From NCBI RefSeq assembly GCF_964212655.1, contig NZ_OZ156465.1:2790001-2854000 (forward strand): a stretch of 64,000 nt of DNA, read 5' to 3'. This DNA comes from Candidatus Thiodiazotropha sp. LNASS1 (GTDB lineage: Bacteria; Pseudomonadota; Gammaproteobacteria; Chromatiales; Chromatiaceae). Shown here piece by piece: positions 3,017-16,001 of the stretch. Under the pieces are notes generated by a model. That model did no database searches. It was not told the DNA's origin and was given only the letters and a program-made list of their open reading frames with translations. A program made the position numbers and the translations under genes. How positions within the stretch are numbered: the stretch's first letter is position 1; each line of letters starts with the position of its first letter.

Positions 3017-3355
3017 TTAGGAAACGGGGGACCTCTCCAGCAGACCGTTCTGATACAACGCCTGGGCAATCTTTTTACTCTTCGCCGCCAAACGGCTGAG
3101 GTCACCAAAGCTGGGTATGGCGCCATTGGCCAGTTTGGCCTCCCACCCATCCAGTTCGGTTTCCAGATAGATAAGCAGCTTGCTTGAGCAGCCTTTACAC
3201 GAATCGCCACACAACGCCTCATCGGGGAGACCGAAGGGAATCTCGTTCCGCACCTGTTCGATAAGTTGGCGCATTGCGGTTTGGGTATTCGGTTTACGGT
3301 TTCTGTTCGTCACGCTAATCAACTCGAACGCTACCATCGAAGGGTTGGCATTCAT
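3017..3355 (-). CDS. Hypothetical protein with C-x3-C-x2-C motif, behind a PhoB-like box
   Basis: I do not recognise the family. The 112-residue protein is soluble and helical, with a cysteine cluster ALCGDSCKGCSSKL (Cys49, Cys53, Cys56) that could hold a metal or form disulfides. AGAGG lies about 8 bases before the ATG. About 70 bp upstream on the same strand is a PhoB-box-like array with a TATATT hexamer exactly 10 bases after two half-sites, the layout of E. coli Pho promoters. That suggests expression under phosphate starvation (inference). Confidence 0.7.
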   Translation of the reverse strand: MNANPSMVAFELISVTNRNRKPNTQTAMRQLIEQVRNEIPFGLPDEALCGDSCKGCSSKLLIYLETELDGWEAKLANGAIPSFGDLSRLAAKSKKIAQALYQNGLLERSPVS

Positions 3356-3758
3356 GGATGGGCCTCTAGATCATCCAAAATTGAGGCAAGATCCGGCCAT
3401 ACTGGGACCAGAGATCGTCACATCAAATATATTACAGTAATATGTCATTTAGATGACAGTGATCAAGGCAATTGGCAGCACACCGTATTAAAATCCGAAA
3501 CATCAAAAAATAAGCATCTAACAAATTGTGTATCGACTTAGAGGAGGGGGCGCGACAGAACGAGGCAAGAACTCGATCAGGCTTGCGTGGAAGACATGCA
3601 TTTACCTCGCAAAATCCGCACATAGTAGTTATACCTACTACTAGAGACCCTGATTTCCAATGTTTCAAAATCAATCTGATACACATTGTTAACAAGTTAT
3701 CTAAACCTGCCGTAAGGCAGCACTTTCATACCAACTCACACTAAATGAGGATAACTTT
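3356..3758. other. Intergenic region between divergent genes
   Basis: This 403-bp gap separates the leftward Cys-motif gene from the rightward DUF47-pit pair. It holds the PhoB-box-like array (3431-3459) and its -10-like hexamer. A short inverted repeat, AGTAG-N6-CTACT, lies near 3627-3642. I see no open frame with a ribosome site and no tRNA. The last 20 bases carry the DUF47 ribosome site (ATGAGGATAAC). Confidence 0.6.
3426..3459 (-). promoter_or_regulatory. PhoB-box-like array and -10 hexamer
   Basis: Read on the minus strand, three seven-base half-sites lie at exact 11-bp steps: CTGTCAT, ATGACAT and CTGTAAT, separated by 4-base spacers CTAA and ATTA. The PhoB half-site consensus is CTGTCAT. 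The first two form an 18-bp Pho box; after a 10-base gap comes TATATT (3431 down to 3426), which matches the -10 consensus at 5 of 6. This spacing drives transcription toward the gene at 3017-3355. The centre also reads as a perfect inverted repeat TGTCAT-TTAG-ATGACA, so an unrelated dimeric operator is the main alternative. Confidence 0.55.
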
Positions 3759-4439
3759 ATGCGACCAACCAACCCCATTGCTTCCCTTCTGGGAAGCTCA
3801 CCTTTCAAACCCTTGCAGATGCATATGGGTAAAGTCAGAGAGTGTATCTCAGAAGTTCCTGGTCTATTCGATGCCCTCATCGATAAAGACCAAGAAAAAC
3901 TGAAGGCTATTAAAGAACAAATCTTCTCCCTCGAGCATGAAGCCGACCAGATTGAAAACGACATCCGTGCCCGTTTGCCAAAAAGTCTGTTCATGCCGGT
4001 AGACCGACGAGACCTGCTCGAGCTGTTGGAGATGCAGGACAGCATTGCCGATACCGCACAGGATATCGCCGGACTCCTGATGGAACGGGACATGTCCGTA
4101 CCGGCCGATATGAGTGAACCACTGCGTAACTTCGTGCAACGGTGCGTCGACACCTGCAACCAGGCGGCCACCATTATCGATGAACTTGATGAACTGATAG
4201 AAATGGGATTCAAGGGCAATCAAGCCAATAAGGTCGAGGAGATGGTGGAAGCACTCGGCAAGGTCGAGGACGAAACCGATGAGATGGGCATGGCGCTGGC
4301 GCGCAGTCTGTTCGCCCAGGAGGAGTCCATGAACCCGGTCTCTGTCATGTTCTGGTATCAGATGATCCAGTGGATCGGCGACCTGGCCGATTATGCAGAG
4401 AAAGTGGGTGACCGCATGCGATTACTGATCGCACGCTGA
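3759..4439 (+). CDS. DUF47 (TIGR00153) PhoU-like phosphate transport regulator
   Basis: The 226-residue helical protein shows the DUF47 pattern: an N-terminal MRPTNPIASLLGSSPFKPLQMHM block, then long helices with the E/D motif IKEQIFSLEHEADQIENDIR (residues 47-66) typical of PhoU-type three-helix bundles, and IQWIGDLADYAEKVGDRMRLL near the C-terminus. These proteins pair with low-affinity Pit phosphate transporters and probably gate them. AGGA precedes the ATG. The pit gene begins 120 bp downstream on the same strand, which supports the pairing. No signal peptide, so it acts in the cytoplasm. Confidence 0.93.
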   Translation: MRPTNPIASLLGSSPFKPLQMHMGKVRECISEVPGLFDALIDKDQEKLKAIKEQIFSLEHEADQIENDIRARLPKSLFMPVDRRDLLELLEMQDSIADTAQDIAGLLMERDMSVPADMSEPLRNFVQRCVDTCNQAATIIDELDELIEMGFKGNQANKVEEMVEALGKVEDETDEMGMALARSLFAQEESMNPVSVMFWYQMIQWIGDLADYAEKVGDRMRLLIAR

Positions 4440-4559: not shown

Positions 4560-5825
4560 GTGGAAATCATTAGCGAATGGGGTACAGTCTTTATTGCGTT
4601 GGCCGTCATCTTCGGCCTTTACATGAGCTGGGGCATCGGCGCCAATGACGTGGCCAATGCCATGGGCACATCGGTAGGCTCAGGTGCGATCACCGTAAAA
4701 CAGGCGATTATCATCGCCGCCATCTTCGAATTTGCCGGCGCCTTCATAGCCGGCGGCTCTGTCACCAAGACCATCCGTAAGGGGATCATCGATCCCACCA
4801 GTATTGTCGGCAACCCGGAACTGCTGATCTACGGCATGCTGGCCGCGCTGCTGGCATCTGCCATCTGGTTGATGATCGCCTCAACCCGTGGCTGGCCGGT
4901 CTCCACCACACACTCCATCGTCGGCGCCATTGTCGGCTTCGCCATGGTGGGCATCGGCGTGGACGCGGTAAACTGGGGCAAGATCGGCAGCATCGTCGCC
5001 AGCTGGATCGTCTCTCCCGTGGTGGGCGGTTTCATCGCCCTGATCTTGATGATCAGCATTCGAAAATTGATCCTGAACACAGACAATCCCTTCGCGCGCG
5101 CCAAAACCTGGGCGCCGGTATACGTCTTCCTGGTCGGTTGGATCGTCTCTCTTGTCACCCTTTTCAAGGGCCTGAAACACCTGAAACTGGAACTCAATAT
5201 GTTTGAGAGCCTGGTGGTTGCAACCATAATCGGTATCATTGTTGCCGCTATCGGTAAAGCGATGATCAACAAGGTCAAGGTCGATGACGAGGCTGACCGG
5301 GATTTCCATTTCGCCAGTGTGGAGAAGGTGTTCACGCCATTGATGATCTTCACCGCCTGCGCCATGGCGTTCGCCCATGGATCAAACGACGTTGCCAACG
5401 GTATCGGTCCCATGGCGGCGGTACTCTCACTGGTCGAAAACGGCGGTGATATCGCGCAAAAGTCAGAATTGCCGATTTGGGTACTCTTTGTCGGTGGTGC
5501 CGGTATCGTAATCGGACTCGCCACCATGGGCTACAAGGTGATGCAGACAATCGGAACCAAGATCACAGAGCTGACACCAACCCGCGGTTACTGTGCAACC
5601 CTGGCGGCAGCCACCACGGTGGTCATCGCTTCCAAGACCGGCCTACCGGTCTCGACCACTCAAATCGCGGTCGGCTGTGTGATGGGTGTCGGCCTGGCCC
5701 GCGGTGTTGGCGCCATCGACCTGCGCGTTGTAGGTAATATCGTCGTCTCATGGGCCATAACACTGCCGGCGGGTGGTATACTGGCCGCAGTATTCTTCTT
5801 CATGCTGAAGGGTATATTCAGCTGA
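4560..5825 (+). CDS. pit: PiT-family inorganic phosphate transporter
   Basis: The protein has 421 residues and about ten or more membrane helices in an inverted-duplicated fold. The two PiT signatures are present: GANDVANAMGTS (residues 27-38) and GSNDVANGIGP (274-284). The paired helical hairpins PVSTTHSIVGA (about 113-123) and PVSTTQIAVG (about 367) are also present. It would carry phosphate with H+ or Na+, or a neutral metal-phosphate, across the inner membrane. The start is GTG, preceded by GAGGA about 6-8 bases upstream. The DUF47 partner lies directly upstream and an intrinsic terminator directly downstream. Confidence 0.95.
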   Translation: MEIISEWGTVFIALAVIFGLYMSWGIGANDVANAMGTSVGSGAITVKQAIIIAAIFEFAGAFIAGGSVTKTIRKGIIDPTSIVGNPELLIYGMLAALLASAIWLMIASTRGWPVSTTHSIVGAIVGFAMVGIGVDAVNWGKIGSIVASWIVSPVVGGFIALILMISIRKLILNTDNPFARAKTWAPVYVFLVGWIVSLVTLFKGLKHLKLELNMFESLVVATIIGIIVAAIGKAMINKVKVDDEADRDFHFASVEKVFTPLMIFTACAMAFAHGSNDVANGIGPMAAVLSLVENGGDIAQKSELPIWVLFVGGAGIVIGLATMGYKVMQTIGTKITELTPTRGYCATLAAATTVVIASKTGLPVSTTQIAVGCVMGVGLARGVGAIDLRVVGNIVVSWAITLPAGGILAAVFFFMLKGIFS

Positions 5826-8069: not shown

Positions 8070-8324
8070 TCACCGGATTTTAGGGCCAAGTTGCTTTCGT
8101 CGCTTTCTACCCTTCTTCAGTTTGATCTCGACAATCTTCAGTTCCGCCTTCAGGCGCTTTTGTTTGCAGACACGCTTCTCCTTTTTCAAGCAATGTCGTA
8201 AATGATCTCTCCTGTCTCCTAGACGCTTCAGAAGCTGATCAATTTTACCCAGGTCATCCTCACTGCCCTTCTTCCCCTTATCAAGAGTCTTGAATAGACG
8301 CCGGATGAGTTTGTCTAACTTCAT
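8070..8324 (-). CDS. Small Lys/Arg-rich coiled-coil protein, copy A, after nptA copy 1
   Basis: This 84-residue protein is almost all charged helix with leucine spacing of a coiled coil (LIRRLFKTLDKGKK, then IDQLLKRLGDRRDHL, then KRLKAELKIVEIKLKK) and is strongly basic. I chose the ATG at 8324, which gives the same length as its paralogue at 15747-16001; a TTG at 8333 is possible. No good ribosome site is visible. It lies 48 bp downstream of the Na/Pi cotransporter gene on the same strand. The paralogue aligns over 75 columns without gaps (27 identities by hand count) and sits after the other Na/Pi gene. Function unknown. Confidence 0.8.
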   Translation of the reverse strand: MKLDKLIRRLFKTLDKGKKGSEDDLGKIDQLLKRLGDRRDHLRHCLKKEKRVCKQKRLKAELKIVEIKLKKGRKRRKQLGPKIR

Positions 8325-8372
8325 ATTCGGCAATCGACGCAGGGGATGGCGCTAAATTTTTCAAGAAACAGC

Positions 8373-10172
8373 TTATTCCTCCTTGATCTCTTCCGGCGGA
8401 ATCACGGATTTCGCCATACGCTTGGCAAAGTAGTAGATTCGTTTTTGCTTTTCGATAATATCCACCTCTGTGGTATAGGCTGCGATTCGATTGGGCTCTT
8501 CCGCAACCAACCTTGCGGCTTGGTGTATTGAAGCGGACTCCACCATCCTATTGATCTCATTCTTCATTGCGATCACGCTTTGCGCAACTTCGGCATTCAA
8601 CTGGGATACGGACTGAACGGCACCATCGACCGCTTTTTTCACAACCTTGTGAAAACCTGACAATACTTCCTTGGTAGGCTCACTGATGGAAAAACCGTGT
8701 TCAATGCGTTCATGGCCCAAAGCAACCATATTGGTCTCTATGGTGTCACCGATATTCTCCAGGTCGCCGACCGCCTCCATCAATGCAAGGAACTCCTCGG
8801 TCTGTTGGTCCGTCATCGACTGTTTACTGATCTTGCCGAGATAGTCGATGATCTGCTCATAGAGAATATCCACTTCATCGTCAAGCGTTGCCACGTCATC
8901 CAACGATTTATGATCGCCATTTAGAATGGCGGGCATTATCCTGTCCAACATTTCCATAACCCGCTCACCCATGTGCAGTACTTCAAGTCGCACACGATCC
9001 AATGCCAATGAAGGGGTGGAGAGCAGTTCATCGTCCAGATACTTGGCACTGACGGCCAATCCCTCTTCCTCCAACAGCCGATCGGGAATCAACCACTCCA
9101 CAAAGCGAGCCAACTGGGCAGTGAACCATATAAAGATGATTGTGTTCGCGATATTGAAAATCGTATGAGCATTGGCGATCTGGCGTGGCGTTTCGGCACC
9201 CAGACGCTCTATACCCGAGAGTTCCGGGTGACTCGGGGAAATCATGGTCACGACTTCGGCCAGTTGGGGAATGAACATAATCCATAGCACCACCCCAGCC
9301 ACATTGAATATGACATGCACAATTGCGGCACGCACCGCCTCCCTCGGCTTGCCGATCGCTGCAAGCATGGCCGTCACACAAGTACCTATATTGGCACCGA
9401 AAGCCAATGCAATCCCTGCAGGCAGGGTAATGAATCCCTGGCTTGCCATCACAATCACGATACCGGTGGTGGCCGAGGAAGATTGGATCAGACCTGTGAA
9501 ACCGGCGGCAACAAGGATACCGATCAGTGGGTTTTCCATGCTGATCATCAAGTCAAGAAATGGCTGATAGCTGCGCAGCGGTTTCATGCCGTCACTCATG
9601 ACGCTCATGCCGAAGAACACCAAGCCCAATCCCATCAGCATGGCACCGTAGTGCTTGATGCGCTCCTGCTTGGATGCAAACAACATGCTAAAGCCGACAC
9701 CAATCATCAATAGCGCTGCTTTTGTGACTTTGAATGCCACGATCTGAGCAGTGATCGTAGTACCGATATTCGCCCCCATGATGACGCCGATCGATTGCGA
9801 CAGCGACATCAAACCGGCGGTTATAAACCCGACCACTAAGACCGTCGTTACGGATGAGGATTGAATAACTGCGGTTACGAAGGCCCCTGTGATCGCGCCC
9901 ATAAAGCGATTTGTAGTCAGTTTGGCAAGAATACCCTTCATACGGGCACCGGCCACAGCCTTCAGCGCATCCGCCATCTGTTCCATACCGAACAGAAACA
10001 GGGCAAGGCCGCCAAACAGCTTCATCCCCATCACACCCCATTCGATACCCGCATCTGCACTGCCATCCGCAAATACAGGCAGTGCCAAAAGCAGGCCCAG
10101 CACGCCTGCAAGTAAGATGATCGACTGTTTAAGATTAAATTCAGTATTCTGGATGAACTTATCGATAATCAT
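8373..10172 (-). CDS. Na/Pi cotransporter with C-terminal PhoU-like domain (copy 1)
   Basis: The 599-residue protein has the NptA/YjbB layout. There is an N-terminal hydrophobic segment, two repeated Na_Pi_cotrans units carrying QSSSVTT (from 104) and QSSSATT (from 230), and GANIGTT / GANIGTC partner motifs. After residue about 370 comes a soluble helical PhoU-like tail (MGERVMEMLDRIM, LMEAVGDLENIGDTIETN). Relatives move phosphate with Na+, and E. coli YjbB promotes phosphate export. The ATG begins one base after the stop of the universal stress protein gene (TGATATG), so translation is coupled. The small coiled-coil gene follows. Confidence 0.93.
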   Translation of the reverse strand: MIIDKFIQNTEFNLKQSIILLAGVLGLLLALPVFADGSADAGIEWGVMGMKLFGGLALFLFGMEQMADALKAVAGARMKGILAKLTTNRFMGAITGAFVTAVIQSSSVTTVLVVGFITAGLMSLSQSIGVIMGANIGTTITAQIVAFKVTKAALLMIGVGFSMLFASKQERIKHYGAMLMGLGLVFFGMSVMSDGMKPLRSYQPFLDLMISMENPLIGILVAAGFTGLIQSSSATTGIVIVMASQGFITLPAGIALAFGANIGTCVTAMLAAIGKPREAVRAAIVHVIFNVAGVVLWIMFIPQLAEVVTMISPSHPELSGIERLGAETPRQIANAHTIFNIANTIIFIWFTAQLARFVEWLIPDRLLEEEGLAVSAKYLDDELLSTPSLALDRVRLEVLHMGERVMEMLDRIMPAILNGDHKSLDDVATLDDEVDILYEQIIDYLGKISKQSMTDQQTEEFLALMEAVGDLENIGDTIETNMVALGHERIEHGFSISEPTKEVLSGFHKVVKKAVDGAVQSVSQLNAEVAQSVIAMKNEINRMVESASIHQAARLVAEEPNRIAAYTTEVDIIEKQKRIYYFAKRMAKSVIPPEEIKEE

Positions 10173-10173
10173 A

Positions 10174-10659
10174 TCAGGACGCCTCTTCTTGGGGTGCTAC
10201 CTTCACCACCATGACTGGCAGCGGACAGAGTTGAACCACGCGTTCGGCCACTGAGCCCAACATGAGATGCTTAATCCCTGTCTCACCTTTACTGCCCATC
10301 ACCACGAATGAGGCATCGATTTTTTTCGCGACTTGCAGAATCCGCGTTACTGGCAAACCGATTACCAACATCCGCTCAGCCCTCTTGAGGCGCTGTTTGG
10401 TGTTGTATTTTTTACGAAATTCCAGGATGAAGTCCTCCAGCATGACACGTGCCGCATCTTGCATTCTGCCGAATTTCTTCTTTTTTACCATCGCCGAATA
10501 GTATCCCGGCATATCCCCGGGATCGTGAACGACATGTAAAACCACTACCCTTACCTTGAGGCACTCCGCCAATTCAAATGCCTTAAGTAGTGCCGCCTCC
10601 GATGCTTCAGAAAAGTCGACAGGTACCAGGATAGGTTGTTTGGCTGCTTTATCGGCCAT
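10174..10659 (-). CDS. Universal stress protein (UspA family, ATP-binding type)
   Basis: A single Usp domain of 161 residues. The start MADKAAKQPILVPVDFSEAS is chosen because GGGAGGA lies about 8 bases upstream; an ATG 27 bases earlier would contain that site. The ATP-binding loop G-x2-G-x9-G-S is intact in VMGSKGETGIKHLMLGS, so it should bind ATP rather than behave like E. coli UspA. A Lys/Arg-rich insert (FGRMQDAARVMLEDFILEFRKKYNTKQRLKRAERM) is longer than usual. It sits between a CNNM gene (45 bp upstream) and nptA copy 1, coupled to the latter, suggesting a link with ion or phosphate transport. Confidence 0.92.
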   Translation of the reverse strand: MADKAAKQPILVPVDFSEASEAALLKAFELAECLKVRVVVLHVVHDPGDMPGYYSAMVKKKKFGRMQDAARVMLEDFILEFRKKYNTKQRLKRAERMLVIGLPVTRILQVAKKIDASFVVMGSKGETGIKHLMLGSVAERVVQLCPLPVMVVKVAPQEEAS

Positions 10660-10704
10660 GACCACATTCCTCCCCCATTCAGTCATTATAAATTAGTGAT
10701 TATT

Positions 10705-11970
10705 TCACCCTAGTTGTCTTTCGATTCTCACTTTTAGCACAGAACGTTCATCAGATTCGACCACAGTCAGGCGGTGACCTTTCTCTTCGATCGCATCGCC
10801 CTCTGACGGAATATGACGCAGGCGGCTGACGATCAAGCCGCCCACCGTCAGTGCCTCCTCCACCGGGAAATCCACATGTAAAATATCATTGATCTCCGAT
10901 ATCGGCGTTCTGCCGCTCACAAGGTGGCTGTTTTCACTCTCATATTCTATGTAGTTACGACGTTTCGGGTGGTATTCATCAAAGTCGTACCCCACATCGA
11001 TTTCACCCACCACCTCTTCAAAAACGTCTTCCATGGTCAGGATACCGATCGCAGAGCCGAATTCATCCACCACCACAGCCATATGATCCTTCCTTGCCTG
11101 CAGCATCGGCAGCGCACGATCGATGGTCTGCCTTGGAGACAGATAGAGCACCGGGCTAATGTAATCGGTTATCGGTTTCTCCTCCAGGTCCGGCAACATC
11201 AGAGCCCAGGTATCAAGGGTGAGAATTCCTTTGACATTGGTGATATTACCGCGATAGACGGGCAGGCGATTGTAACCATGCTTCATGACCAACCGCACTG
11301 CCTCCTTCATGTTACGCACTTCATTAAAACCCACTACATCCGGCAATGGGATCATCGCTTCACCAACCGTGGTATCGGCAAAACGAATGATTCTTCGGAT
11401 CCGCTTGCGATCGATGGTTTGCATGTCAGAGGTCGAATCGGACACATCCAACAGCACCCGCAACTCCTCGCGGGTAATGAACATGTTCTGCGGCACTGTA
11501 CCACCACCGACAATCCGGGTCGCCAGCCTGGCCACGCGACTGAAGATAAAGATCACCGGATAGAAGACATAGGAGAAGAAGCGCAGGATATAGACCAATC
11601 GGCTGACCAGGCTGTCAGCTTCCTGCTGAAATACACTTTTCGGCACCACTTCGCCAAAGATCAACAGGATGGGTGTCAATATGATCACTGAGATCAGGTC
11701 GCCGGTATTGCCAAACAGATCGATACAGACAAGCGCACCCAGGGTTGAGATAGTGACTGTAGCGATATTGGTGCCGACCAGGGTCGTACCCAGGATCACA
11801 TCAGGTGTTTTGAACAGCCTGAGAACCAAATTTGCACCACGATTGCCCAGTTTCCCCTGATGCCGCAGTTTCAGCTTGTCAGAGTTCACCATCGCGATCT
11901 CCGATCCGGAGAAAAATCCCTTCAACAAAAGAAAGAAAAGGATCATCAGCAATTCAACGCTCCAGTTCAT
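10705..11970 (-). CDS. CNNM/CorC-type transporter with CBS domains (HlyC/CorC family)
   Basis: The start at 11970 follows an excellent ribosome site (AAAGGAGG, 6 bases away); an upstream in-frame start would add only a basic run. Four membrane segments form the CNNM domain, beginning LLKGFFSGSEIAMVNSDKL and including TLVGTNIATVTIS and FGEVVPKSVFQ. Two CBS domains follow (about 195-315: YNRLPVYRG, MAVVVDEFGSAIGILTMED), then a CorC/HlyC domain ending about residue 420. Relatives handle Mg2+ and Co2+ efflux or Na+/Mg2+ exchange; the older haemolysin label is not supported. Its start overlaps the end of the broken CNNM paralogue by 17 bases. Confidence 0.92.
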   Translation of the reverse strand: MNWSVELLMILFFLLLKGFFSGSEIAMVNSDKLKLRHQGKLGNRGANLVLRLFKTPDVILGTTLVGTNIATVTISTLGALVCIDLFGNTGDLISVIILTPILLIFGEVVPKSVFQQEADSLVSRLVYILRFFSYVFYPVIFIFSRVARLATRIVGGGTVPQNMFITREELRVLLDVSDSTSDMQTIDRKRIRRIIRFADTTVGEAMIPLPDVVGFNEVRNMKEAVRLVMKHGYNRLPVYRGNITNVKGILTLDTWALMLPDLEEKPITDYISPVLYLSPRQTIDRALPMLQARKDHMAVVVDEFGSAIGILTMEDVFEEVVGEIDVGYDFDEYHPKRRNYIEYESENSHLVSGRTPISEINDILHVDFPVEEALTVGGLIVSRLRHIPSEGDAIEEKGHRLTVVESDERSVLKVRIERQLG

Positions 11971-13336
11971 TTTCAACCTCCTTTGATTGCGTCTTTGCCT
12001 TCTCCTCCTGATCAATCATGGCTGGCTTCTCAATCCCCTCCTCGACCTTCTCCTTACCCGCTATTGTCGCCTCTGACCCTTCATCTTCGACAACAGGAGG
12101 CTCCTCATCTGTGGCCACGATTTTACGCACCTGTACCTTGCTGATCCGCAGGCCTTTCACCTCCTTGACGATAAACTCATAGCCTTCATTGCGCAGGTTA
12201 TCCCCCTCATTTGGCAGACGGTCGAAGAGGCGGAAAACCACGCCTCCTATGGTTGCCATCACGGGATCTTCAATATCGAAATTGGTGAGATTGTAAAAGT
12301 CGGTAAGGCGCATATCACCAGGAACGGTGTAACTGTTCTCATCCTCTTCCTGGTAATACTCCGAACCGGCCATCTTTCCGGTAATCTCACCGAAGATGAA
12401 GGTCAACACATCCTTCATGGTAACGACGCCAAGTACCTCACCGTATTCGCCGAGTACGATGGATATTCGGGTATTATTGGCCTGAAAATAGTCGAACATC
12501 TCATCCACCTTCTTGGTGGGCGGAACGAAATGCGCCGGTTTGAGGATCATATCCAGGGTAACCTGCTCCAGATCACCCCCACCTCTGACAAGTCGCAGGA
12601 TATCCTCCGAGTGGAGAAAACCGATAACGTTGTCCCAGTGCCCCTTATAAACCGGAATCCTTGGATGCTGATAACTGCGAAACGCCTCGATCAGTTCAGA
12701 TACAGGCAGGTTCGCATCCAGGAAAAGTATGCGCGGACCGGGCGTCATTATCCGTGAAATATCCGTCTCTGAGGCCTCCAGTACATTATCGATCAACACA
12801 CGTTCAGTGGCTTCGATCACGCCACTCTCTTCACCCTCTTCCAATAAGGTGCGCAGTTCGTCGGCATGCAGAATGTTCTCCCGACTTATCGCCTCACCCA
12901 CGATCATGGTGGTGATGCGGTCGGATACCGATCTGACCGCTTCTCTCAGGGGCGTGATAAAAACAATCCATCGCGGCAGTATTCTTGCTGTCAACCGGGT
13001 TGCGAACTTAACGGGAAAACTGACCGCAATGGTCTTTGGGGTTACCTCACCGATCAACAACAAACAACGGCACCATGATGAGGATGTTAAACCAGGTGAC
13101 GTTGGCATCACCGTAGAGCATCAGCAGGATCGCCGCCATATTGGCGGCCGAGGCGATATTCACCAGTTCGTTGCCGCATAGTATCGAAATAATCAGGCGT
13201 CGCGGCTCATCCAGCATGGCATGGATGCTTTCCGAATGCTTGTCACGGCTGTTTCTGAGTTTTTGCAGATCTATCCGACTGAGAGAGAAGAATCTGCGAG
13301 TCCAAGAGAATCGATGAGTGTTCTCAACTCTTCCAT
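11954..13336 (-). pseudogene. CNNM/CorC-type gene, frameshifted and missing its first membrane helix
   Basis: A second CNNM-CBS-CorC gene is split over two frames. The upstream frame (to a stop at 13047) reads FFSLSRIDLQKLRNS through MAAILLMLYGDANVTW to MVPLF; the downstream frame resumes with LLLIGEVTPKTIAVSF and continues through both CBS domains to the end at 11954. Removing one T from the TTT at 13062-13064 restores MVPLLLLIGEVTPKT. The N-terminus is also odd: the usual hydrophobic helix ending FSGSETAL is absent, and the plausible ATG at 13336 (MEELRTLIDSLGLA) is in a different frame from FFSLSR. A sequencing error could explain one shift but not the missing helix. The acidic tail is long. 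Confidence 0.8.
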
Positions 13337-13893
13337 TAACTATTCCGAATCGGCTTCTAGCGGCCACGATGGGCGGACAGATTATTACTGAAGCGGGGCC
13401 TTTGAATCAGATCGCATGATTCAGAACCCCATCATCAATGGCCAATTAAATGGGCTTGCAGTTATCGGGATTTCAAATACAGCTTCATCCGCTGTATGAA
13501 TCAAAACAAACCCGGTTATTTTTTTCGTTCAGGATTGAAGTGACCCTGTCGAAGCAACTAAGACTGCACGACAGCTACCTGTTTAATTCTACCTGAAATC
13601 ACCAGCCCTGGTGAAATGCCGGAATGTTGCTGCCTCCCGGAACGAGCGGTTCGGATGAATCTTAGAACAGCCCCTATATGAGTTTAACAAGAATACAGCC
13701 CTTAGCGTATAATTGTTACAGTTTTATGACAGTATGATGACAAAAGCCAGCATACAATAGAAATCCCGACCATAAATTCTCTCTACATCACCACATTGAG
13801 GCATGGTGCTGCTTGTCTATCAGAGCAGAAAGCGTTGATACACATACTTCGATAATGCAGCCATGATAATGGCTACTTGAAACAGGCCCGATA
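13337..13893. other. Intergenic region between divergent CNNM and Na/Pi groups
   Basis: This gap of about 560 bp contains the PhoB-box-like array (13715-13743). To its right on the plus strand is a TACAAT hexamer (13753-13758) with no -35 match, as expected for an activator-dependent promoter. On the minus strand an AT-rich TTATAC/TATACG stretch follows the array within about 5 bases. I see no coding frame with a ribosome site, and no hydrophobic peptide that could be the lost first helix of the CNNM pseudogene. Confidence 0.6.
13715..13743 (-). promoter_or_regulatory. PhoB-box-like array between divergent phosphate genes
   Basis: On the minus strand three half-sites stand at exact 11-bp steps: TTGTCAT, CTGTCAT and CTGTAAC, with spacers CATA and AAAA. 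The last two form an 18-bp unit very close to the E. coli Pho box (CTGTCAT-N4-CTGTCAC). The array lies 150 bp upstream of nptA copy 2 and points toward the leftward CNNM-CNNM-usp-nptA group, so it could serve either or both. The layout repeats that at 3431-3459. PhoB control is inferred; no phoB or phoR gene lies in the window. Confidence 0.65.
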
Positions 13894-15726
13894 ATGATAC
13901 GAAAAATATTTCTTCCCAGCATTCTGATCATACTTACCTATGGCTTCTGGATCAGTCCTGATTTCAAGGAGATAGCAGCAGGTGTCGCCATCTTTCTATT
14001 CGGCATGTTATCTCTCGAGGAAGGCTTCAAGGCATTTACCGGCGGAACGCTGGAGCGGATCCTGCGCAATAGTACCAACCGTTACTGGAAAAGCCTCAGC
14101 TTCGGTATCGTCAGCACCACGATCATGCAGTCCAGCTCTCTGGTGTCGGTCATCACCATCTCTTTCCTCAGTGCCGGTCTGATCACCCTGGCTGCCGGTA
14201 TCGGCATCATCTTCGGCGCCAATATCGGTACGACAACAGGGGCCTGGTTGATTGCCGGCCTCGGTTTGAAGGTGAAAATCTCAGCCTACGCCATGCCCAT
14301 GCTGGCATTCGGCATCATCATGGTTTTCCAAAAATCCAATACATACAAAGGTTTAGGCTACATACTAGCCGGTCTCGGCTTCCTGTTTCTCGGCATACAC
14401 CACATGAAGGAGGGCTTCGAGGCCTTCAAATCCACCATCGACCTCACCGAATTTGCCGTTGCCGGATACCCCGGTCTGTTTCTGTTTGCCGGCATCGGCA
14501 TCTTCGCCACCGTCGTCATGCAATCGAGCCATGCCACCCTGGTATTGATTCTGACCGGCCTCGCAGCCGGGCAGATCACCTATGAAAACGCCCTTGCATT
14601 GGCGATAGGCGCCAACGTGGGTACCTGTATTACCGCAATCCTCGGCTCGCTCAGCGCCAATGTGGAGGGAAAACGCCTGGCGGCTGCACACCTTGTCTTC
14701 AATGTCATAACCGGTGTCATCGCCATCGTCTTTATCCAACAGTTTCTGTGGGGAGTGGAGAGCATCAGCACCCTGGTGGGTATCGCGGACGACGACTACA
14801 CCCTGAAACTGGCGGTATTCCATACCCTGTTCAACATCACCGGTGTATTGGTCATGACACCCACGATAAACATCCTGGTCACTAAATTGGAAAGCATGCT
14901 GCAGGCAAAGGAGGTTTCGGTGGTGGAACCCAAATACCTCTACGATGCCACCATGGGATTTCCCGATACCGTGATGGAATCGGTACGTAAAGAAACCCTG
15001 CATCTCTACGATAATGCCCTGGAGATCATTGCCCATGGCGTCAGTCTCCACAGGCGTGATGTTTTCTCCTCGGCCGATCTGCCTGAAATCGTTGAAAAAC
15101 CTCATAAAGTTATCGATATCGATATCGACGAGGTGTATGGCCGCAACGTCAAGGTGCTGTACGGCGCCATCGTCAGCTATATCTCGGAAGCCCAGACCCA
15201 CATCACGTCGGAGTACTCTGAAGACCTCTACTCACTGAGACTGGCAGGCCGACACATCGTGGAGGCCTTGAAGGACGTGAAACACTTGCGCAAGAACCTG
15301 GCAACCTATATGGTTTCAGACAATGAGCATATTCGTGCAGAATATAATAAATTCAGGTTGCAAATTGGTAACATTTTGCGTGAGCTTGGGGATTTAAGGG
15401 TACAGTCCGAGGATCCGGATAACATCACAATCCTCAATCTGGACGGTCTGAAAGCGGAGATTGAAGAGATCGATGTGGTTGCCAACGGTTCGCTGGATCA
15501 TCTGATTCGTGAGAACCTGATAACCGAGAAGATGGCCACATCGATTATGAATGACAGCGCCTACACCTTCGACATCTCCAAAAATCTGATCGACATGGCG
15601 GAGATATTGTTCGCCGCACGCGCACTTGATCTCAGAGAGGCGGAACAGGATATCGCACTCAACGAAGATGAGCTGGAACAGATCATCGAAGAGGTCGAGG
15701 CCGAAGAAAAAGCACAAGACAGATAG
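13894..15726 (+). CDS. Na/Pi cotransporter with C-terminal PhoU-like domain (copy 2)
   Basis: The protein has 610 residues and the same fold as copy 1. The first repeat carries QSSS (79-82) and GANIGTTTG. The second repeat reads QSSHATL (from 210) instead of QSSSAT, with GANVGTCIT after it. From about residue 350 a helical PhoU-like region follows (RKETLHLYDNALEIIAHGV, RLAGRHIVEALKDVKHLRKNL). The tail is acidic (EEVEAEEKAQDR). The His for Ser change in the second substrate motif may alter ion coupling. It starts 150 bp after the PhoB-like array and is followed 20 bp later by the small basic coiled-coil gene. Confidence 0.92.
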   Translation: MIRKIFLPSILIILTYGFWISPDFKEIAAGVAIFLFGMLSLEEGFKAFTGGTLERILRNSTNRYWKSLSFGIVSTTIMQSSSLVSVITISFLSAGLITLAAGIGIIFGANIGTTTGAWLIAGLGLKVKISAYAMPMLAFGIIMVFQKSNTYKGLGYILAGLGFLFLGIHHMKEGFEAFKSTIDLTEFAVAGYPGLFLFAGIGIFATVVMQSSHATLVLILTGLAAGQITYENALALAIGANVGTCITAILGSLSANVEGKRLAAAHLVFNVITGVIAIVFIQQFLWGVESISTLVGIADDDYTLKLAVFHTLFNITGVLVMTPTINILVTKLESMLQAKEVSVVEPKYLYDATMGFPDTVMESVRKETLHLYDNALEIIAHGVSLHRRDVFSSADLPEIVEKPHKVIDIDIDEVYGRNVKVLYGAIVSYISEAQTHITSEYSEDLYSLRLAGRHIVEALKDVKHLRKNLATYMVSDNEHIRAEYNKFRLQIGNILRELGDLRVQSEDPDNITILNLDGLKAEIEEIDVVANGSLDHLIRENLITEKMATSIMNDSAYTFDISKNLIDMAEILFAARALDLREAEQDIALNEDELEQIIEEVEAEEKAQDR

Positions 15727-15746: not shown

Positions 15747-16001
15747 ATGCCCCCACCAGAGAAAATTGTAAAAAAATTGATGGACCTGCTCGATGCAGGC
15801 AAAAAGAAGGACCGGGCCAAATGTGACCGCATCTCAGAACTCCTAAAGAAACTAAAAAAGCAGGAACGCGTAGTCAAAGAGAAACTGGCTAACGAAAAGG
15901 ACCGAACAAAACGCAAGCGCCTTTCAACCGAGGTCAAGATCATCCACACTCAGCGCAAAAAAGCGATTCGGCGTTTCAAGGAGCTTAAAAACAAGTGTTA
16001 G
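15747..16001 (+). CDS. Small Lys/Arg-rich coiled-coil protein, copy B, after nptA copy 2
   Basis: An 84-residue, very basic helical protein (KIVKKLMDLLDAGKKK, then ISELLKKLKKQERVVKEKL, then KRLSTEVKIIHTQRKK). GAAGAGG lies about 8 bases before the ATG. It is a paralogue of the protein at 8070-8324: from the residue-6 region onward the two align without a gap over 75 positions, sharing LLK-x-L, KRL-x2-E-x-K-I and the C-terminal KK/KEL pattern. Both follow a Na/Pi cotransporter gene on the same strand. It could contact the acidic PhoU-like tail, polyphosphate or RNA; none of these is shown. Confidence 0.85.
   Translation: MPPPEKIVKKLMDLLDAGKKKDRAKCDRISELLKKLKKQERVVKEKLANEKDRTKRKRLSTEVKIIHTQRKKAIRRFKELKNKC

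Follow-up and report, generated by a model that had tools for sequence, protein, structure and literature searches.

A probable, reversed three-unit Pho box beside the predicted nptA2 promoter of Candidatus Thiodiazotropha: a candidate operator for shutting off a Na+/phosphate symporter in starvation

The response regulator PhoB activates or represses according to the position of its site, as described in the excerpted text of PMC10294691. The E. coli Pho box consensus is given as CTGTCAT-AWAW-CTGTMAY in the excerpt of PMC3465305. Control of phosphate importers of the Pit and NptA types has been reported in several bacteria. The excerpted portions of two Sinorhizobium studies describe orfA-pit as repressed in starvation, with a Pho box just before the coding start (PMC3131613), and pit1 as one of the most repressed genes (PMC8829014). 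In similar excerpts, the Pho system switches on nptA in Staphylococcus aureus (PMC13170248) and pitH2 of Streptomyces needs PhoP (PMC7866108), so that the sign of Pho control differs between lineages. According to PMC10294691, PhoB does not bind at E. coli pitB, and intragenic PhoB sites of E. coli did not act as roadblocks. Among the records listed in a literature search, judged by titles and the beginnings of abstracts, there was no report of a PhoB site at nptA in the genus Candidatus Thiodiazotropha, which comprises gammaproteobacterial symbionts of lucinid clams.

The window analyzed here is a 64,000-nucleotide stretch (positions 2,790,001-2,854,000) of a single-contig Candidatus Thiodiazotropha genome of 4,746,093 bp. 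The original prediction, made from the letters of this window, had placed PhoB-like half-sites between divergent phosphate and cation genes and suggested that one control region may drive the whole island. Pfam and NCBIfam searches gave the following genes:

3759..4439, plus strand: PhoU-like DUF47 gene before pit (PF01865)
4560..5825, plus strand: pit phosphate transporter gene (PF01384)
8070..8333, minus strand: 87-aa gene after nptA1, no Pfam/NCBIfam match
8373..10172, minus strand: nptA1, Na+/Pi symporter with C-terminal PhoU domain (Pfam/NCBIfam)
10174..10686, minus strand: universal stress protein gene, usp (Pfam search)
10705..12015, minus strand: CNNM2, with domains CNNM-CBS-CorC_HlyC (Pfam search)
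11954..13336, minus strand: CNNM1, broken here by an 85-bp deletion near the start and a one-base frameshift
13894..15726, plus strand: nptA2, Na+/Pi symporter family, the proposed target (Pfam PF02690; NF037997 over cut-off)
15747..16001, plus strand: 84-aa gene after nptA2, a coiled coil according to the original prediction, no Pfam/NCBIfam match

The leftward CNNM-CNNM-usp-nptA group and the rightward nptA group lie as had been claimed, apart from the broken CNNM1. In G009, G003, G001, G006 and G017 this gene is a single open frame and in G056 its matches are in frame, while in G011 it is likewise split between frames. The one-base shift may stem from a sequencing error.

Between the two groups lie these elements:

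13737..13743, minus strand: half-site 1, TTGTCAT (CTGTCAT in G009; CCGTCAG in G003, G011 and G001)
13726..13732, minus strand: half-site 2, CTGTCAT, from sequence reading and alignment
13715..13721, minus strand: half-site 3, CTGTAAC, which pairs with half-site 2
13708..13713, plus strand: TATAAT, predicted -10 of the nptA2 promoter (TTAACA-18-TATAAT), one base before the array
13684..13689, plus strand: TTAACA, predicted -35, poorly conserved between species
13586..13615, minus strand: putative leftward promoter TTCACC-18-TAGAAT, 9/12, score within chance

Direct reading of the minus strand from 13743 to 13715 gave the three 7-base half-sites with CATA and AAAA between them, at the exact 11-bp period that had been described. 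The predicted closeness to the Pho box was borne out as well: the inner pair, CTGTCATAAAACTGTAAC, agrees with the published consensus of E. coli in 18/18 positions and is the sole such match in the 4.75-Mb genome, for which our arithmetic gives a chance rate of ~0.002 per genome. A scan of all 4,746,093 bp with YTGTMAY-N4-YTGTMAY-N4-YTGTMAY found one exact match, the array, and three more at 1-2 mismatches, against none at up to two mismatches with the pattern written backwards. The two-half pattern had eight exact matches (backwards control 0); two of these are the overlapping pairs of the array, and only the one at 13715 also fits the E. coli consensus. Within the window this consensus was found four times at three or fewer mismatches, where shuffles gave 0.41; the array pair is the sole exact match and the other three lie within the array and a second array at 3431-3459. 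A looser pattern, CTGTCATNNNNCTGTCAT, stayed at chance level in the window (9 found at three mismatches, 6.15 expected).

To avoid circularity, a PhoB matrix was built on pstS2 (L020), which is not part of the island, from the sites in its upstream region. It comprised 11 non-identical sites from the pstS2 promoters of other members of the genus, with the sequence of the genome itself and of its sister left out. The sites were chosen by a motif filter, which all 16 genomes given passed; G056 and G020 were not in the input, and the pstS2 alignment was used without three PstS paralog rows (G001b, G003b and G011b). With this matrix the array scored 27.0 of a possible 29.0, the top value in the window, followed by 20.3 (at 3431, before pit), 17.7 (at 13726, the overlapping pair) and 13.1. 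In 300 simulated 64-kb windows no score exceeded 20.2; the array lies well above this level. The matrix scores given below for CNNM operons, pit loci and clade arrays come from an earlier version (with the other G016 copy, and with the genome's own and its sister's site included), between which and the final version places 2 and 3 of the window swap.

The pstS2 box is exact in 16/18 aligned genomes; its last base differs in G056 and G020 has no box. By our reading, a TAnnnT stands 10 bases past the aligned copy in 16/16 tabulated genomes, taking the first of two copies in G016. The motif TGTCAY-N4-CTGTAAY, written TGTCAYNNNNCTGTAAY, occurs exactly at only two places in the genome, upstream of pstS2 and in the array. 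At one mismatch there were 32 matches and in the backwards control 16, a two-fold excess, which means that the weaker matches are mostly noise.

The genome encodes two response regulators above the TIGR02154 (PhoB) cut-off, and the one kinase tested is above the TIGR02966 (PhoR) cut-off. One PhoB lies beside a pstS-like gene in an apparent pst-phoU operon (L025, named by eye); the other adjoins the PhoR-like kinase (L026). Given the 11-bp repeats, the fit to the consensus, the presence of PhoB and PhoR, the motif shared with a pst gene and the conservation in relatives described below, binding of PhoB to this predicted site is very likely. This part of the original interpretation is well supported by the sequence comparisons; the island-wide control region is not, for reasons of geometry and gene distribution that follow.

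A weak Pho-box-like CTGTCATCTTTATGTAAC stands just before phoB1 (L025 8677-8694, minus strand), where autoregulation is possible. No site lay upstream of pstS1 among the best three matrix matches of L025. Before phoB2 no Pho box was seen by eye in two alignments covering 20/21 loci, 19 of them usable (G012, with a locus cut short, was left out and the G019 row is misplaced for the same cause), and the matrix reached at most 11.2 in the gap upstream of phoB2 in the genome itself. At L026 9046-13598 a third CNNM-like gene lies divergent to the phoB2-phoR pair, and the gene after it resembles polyphosphate kinase (both named by eye). These two are separated by a usp and an nptA1-like gene in G013, G018, G004 and G014. 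CNNM, NptA and Pho genes are thus clustered twice.

The promoter predicted for nptA2, TTAACA-18-TATAAT, matches the sigma-70 consensus at 11/12 positions. Its TATAAT is unchanged in 8/8 genomes with the same gene arrangement (G000, G009, G003, G011, G001, G006, G017 and G056). Transcription is predicted to start near 13720, which means that the array would span about -5 to +24, in reversed orientation to nptA2. In an intergenic alignment of seven genomes 64% of the columns from 13706 to 13741 are invariant, compared to 25% overall; these are the most conserved 36 bases of the alignment, apart from one stretch that reaches into the nptA2 coding start. The geometry of a PhoB-activated promoter, a box in sense orientation with a -10 element about 10 bases downstream, is found at the array in neither direction. 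The leftward hexamer ten bases past half-site 3 reads TAAGGG here and TAGGGG, TATGCG or TAGGCG in four array-bearing relatives, unlike the TAnnnT at the same distance from the pstS2 box (read from alignments). The array would have the position expected of a box at or after the start region, as in the orfA-pit type, if the predicted start is right.

Compared to the E. coli pstS class of Pho box, the array has the same 7-base direct repeats at 11-bp steps, the same consensus at 18/18 positions and a genome with PhoB and PhoR, but it faces away from its gene and lies over the predicted start, not ~10 bases before the -10. With S. meliloti orfA-pit, as excerpted, it shares the position of a Pho box on an importer gene near the gene start and not ahead of the promoter, and pit here also carries an array. 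The present case differs in that the main target is an NptA gene in a gammaproteobacterium and that repression is predicted from geometry. S. aureus nptA under PhoPR, again as excerpted, likewise is an NptA-family importer under a phosphate two-component system, but it is induced in starvation, the opposite of what the geometry here predicts.

The reading that we prefer, with a probability of roughly 0.6, is that PhoB represses nptA2 in phosphate starvation from the reversed array over its predicted start. With ample phosphate, sigma-70 polymerase would start from the TATAAT at 13708-13713 and NptA2 would be made. In starvation, phosphorylated PhoB would fill the three half-sites from about -5 to +24 and block initiation, turning NptA2 off, and would meanwhile turn on pstS2 from a correctly oriented box ten bases before its -10. 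NptA2, and perhaps also Pit, would then be off while Pst is on. Repression is predicted from the reversed, start-covering site. By our reading the half-sites at pstS2 also continue past the -10, so that overlap of a box with the start does not by itself prove repression. What is observed is the sequence, its rarity and conservation, the conserved TATAAT beside it and its occurrence together with nptA2 or pit; we infer that PhoB binds it, where transcription starts and that control is negative.

Orthologs of nptA2 (at least 61% identity) were found in 15/21 genomes of the genus, in two arrangements. In the seven genomes of clade 1, nptA2 is divergent from CNNM1-CNNM2-usp-nptA1. In the eight of clade 2 it lies elsewhere: directly after pit in five, with a pit fragment in G016, and at a place where pit was not found in G010 and G007. 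The reversed three-unit array is present in 5/7 clade-1 and 8/8 clade-2 genomes, 13/15 in all. A three-unit score of at least 17 was reached 15 times in 206 kb (15 regions), namely by these 13 arrays, the pit array of the window genome and one other site. The matrix reached at least 14 at the array in 9/15 genomes with nptA2. Among clade-2 genomes this holds for 4/8 (G016 25.3, G007 21.6, G012 20.7, G010 16.9); G013 (13.6) and G018, G004 and G014 (11.9 each) fall below owing to inversion of the middle unit, an arrangement that is not textbook for PhoB. G006 and G017 have a decayed array (matrix 7.9) though nptA2 and TATAAT are intact. At the place of the TATAAT, clade-2 genomes have TTTAAT, TTGAAT, CATAAA or TATAAA by our reading of the alignment.

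In the five pit-bearing clade-2 genomes the reversed array precedes the pit start by ~50 bp. The next upstream ORF in G013, G018, G004 and G014 is a WYL gene reading toward pit, and the two nearest listed upstream ORFs of G012 also read toward pit; therefore, among the ORFs listed, no leftward gene is seen at these five arrays. The window genome has an array of its own before pit:

3431..3459, minus strand: second array, CTGTCAT-CTAA-ATGACAT-ATTA-CTGTAAT, middle unit inverted, reversed to DUF47-pit and ~300 bp before the coding start

The stretch aligned to this second array in G003, G011 and G001 holds TTGTCAT, CTGTCTT and GTGTCAT at 11-bp steps. A matrix site was found at 5/10 DUF47-pit loci, and by the matrix 0/15 other pit copies outside the clade-2 pit-nptA2 units had one. 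With a like array before pit here and in some relatives, these importers would form a switched-off set opposite Pst.

Ten genomes have a CNNM-nptA1 operon with no nptA2 next to it. Its upstream region was scanned in nine, G008 being left out of the count because its contig begins ~200 bp before CNNM1. No site scoring at least 14 was found at 7/9 of these operons; G005 has one of 13.0 that faces away from CNNM1. A single weaker pair (18.2), directed toward CNNM1, occupies the aligned place in the sisters G015 and G020, where the TATAAT is gone. The array is present in genomes with nptA2 or pit-nptA2 and mostly absent at lone CNNM operons, and it therefore tracks nptA2 and pit-nptA2, not the CNNM operon. 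A shared bidirectional activator was dropped as the best reading on this co-occurrence. The proposal that a single control region serves the whole island is not supported: the array is reversed on the predicted rightward start, there is no leftward TAnnnT at the pstS2 distance and the CNNM group exists without the array.

An unlikely alternative, although the leading one, is that in starvation PhoB activates the leftward CNNM-usp-nptA1 operon from the array. The half-sites have the right orientation for leftward transcription, a conserved AATTAT lies 11 bases after half-site 2 and the weaker pair of G015 and G020 also reads toward CNNM1. However, the hexamer at the pstS2 distance past half-site 3 is not TAnnnT, and in array-bearing relatives roughly 350-400 bp separate the array from the start of CNNM1. 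The distribution argues against leftward activation too, with the CNNM operon lacking the array in 7/9 genomes and the clade-2 pit-side array lacking a leftward gene among the ORFs listed. Moreover, half-site 1 is degenerate in G003, G011 and G001, and the first gene to be activated is broken in the window genome. Somewhat less probable still is that PhoB, bound to this unusual reversed site over the start point, activates nptA2 itself under starvation. The PhoPR-induced nptA of S. aureus (excerpt of PMC13170248) would be a precedent and three loci (L244, L237 and L234) have arrays in sense orientation before nptA2 relatives, but the site here covers the predicted start without the activation geometry of pstS2, and among the matrix matches of the window no second box lies on the -35 side.

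The array might also bind another OmpR-family regulator of the genome instead of PhoB. There are 93 genome matches to the PhoB model, most of them far below the cut-off, and half of the arrays in clade 2 score too low with the PhoB matrix on account of their inverted middle unit. The 18/18 fit to the Pho box of E. coli and the exact presence of this two-unit motif at pstS2 in 16/18 genomes speak against it, and we consider it improbable. That the array is a match without transcriptional effect is the least credible of these readings and would surprise us: many intragenic PhoB sites of E. coli are reportedly inert (excerpt of PMC10294691) and the array has decayed in G006 and G017, but it is intergenic, adjoins the conserved TATAAT within a highly conserved stretch and was kept in two gene arrangements.

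Among wider relatives, 80 loci with nptA2 relatives were scored for triple arrays within 500 bp upstream, using weights of our own derived from the Pho box consensus. At a triple score of at least 22 there were 14 reversed and 3 sense arrays, compared to 0.3% and 0.1% of shuffles, respectively. At 18.5 the excess was small (29/80 reversed and 20/80 sense, versus 18% and 14.5% of shuffles). Counted by lineage, there are about 7 reversed and 3 sense cases, and two of the ~7 reversed lineages face a plausible Pho gene across the gap (by eye, pstS-like in L283 and porin-like in L275). With so few lineages and such genes across the gap, the reversed excess is suggestive only. At L283 (-1341 to +1799 relative to nptA2) the nptA2 relative is divergent from the pstS-like gene (by eye) with the Pho array between them. 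In L230 and L231, from tubeworm symbionts, a reversed array precedes nptA2 in a row pit-ATPase-PPase-nptA2 (by eye), and among the ORFs listed no gene starts leftward from it.

We tentatively propose, as a wider idea that is rather less probable than repression at this locus, that in chemosynthetic clam and tubeworm symbionts the sign of control follows from the direction in which a Pho box points. A reversed operator over the start point may then be an ancestral negative element of a pit-nptA2 unit, one that nptA2 retained when pit was lost and through rearrangements, and starvation would swap uptake by NptA2 and Pit for uptake by Pst. If so, these symbionts would switch importer types via one regulator, and the sign would be readable from box orientation. 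The case also cautions against taking a Pho box that separates divergent genes for an activator of both. According to the excerpt of a 2026 study of Ca. T. endolucinida (PMC13137333; metatranscriptome reads in ENA PRJEB101735), pstA, B, C, S, phoB and phoU reach higher levels in one clam host than in two other hosts, which its authors read as faster growth. This near relative (G009) carries the array; if repression is true, nptA2 should be lower in the high-pst/phoB host.

Some minor observations concern the surroundings of the array and the other sites. G056, of the same species as the window genome, has an nptA2 without its 5' end (L218 8860-10537), a half-site 3 reading ATGTAAC and CNNM1 in frame; the two genomes are damaged on opposite sides of the divergent CNNM1/nptA2 pair. 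The block of the putative leftward promoter is common to G015, G020, G005 and G019, all of which are without nptA2. A search of window positions 1-24000 for an RNA element in the long CNNM1 leader gave no Rfam family at the gathering threshold; parts of this leader (13332-13464, minus strand) are conserved in clade 1. The other exact two-half matches lie inside ORFs at 576361 and 1259963, and at 1106697, 3549739 and 4448431 they are intergenic or at an ORF start. A Pho-box-like pair precedes a chemotaxis-receptor-like gene (L023 3740-3757, named by eye), and another precedes a gene with a secreted, DUF4124-like start (L024 3432-3449, by eye). Beside pit, a small protein with GDSCKGCSSKLLIYLE is encoded at 3017-3355 on the minus strand of the window, with no NCBIfam match; a similar small protein (by eye) follows nptA2 in G013, G018, G004 and G014.
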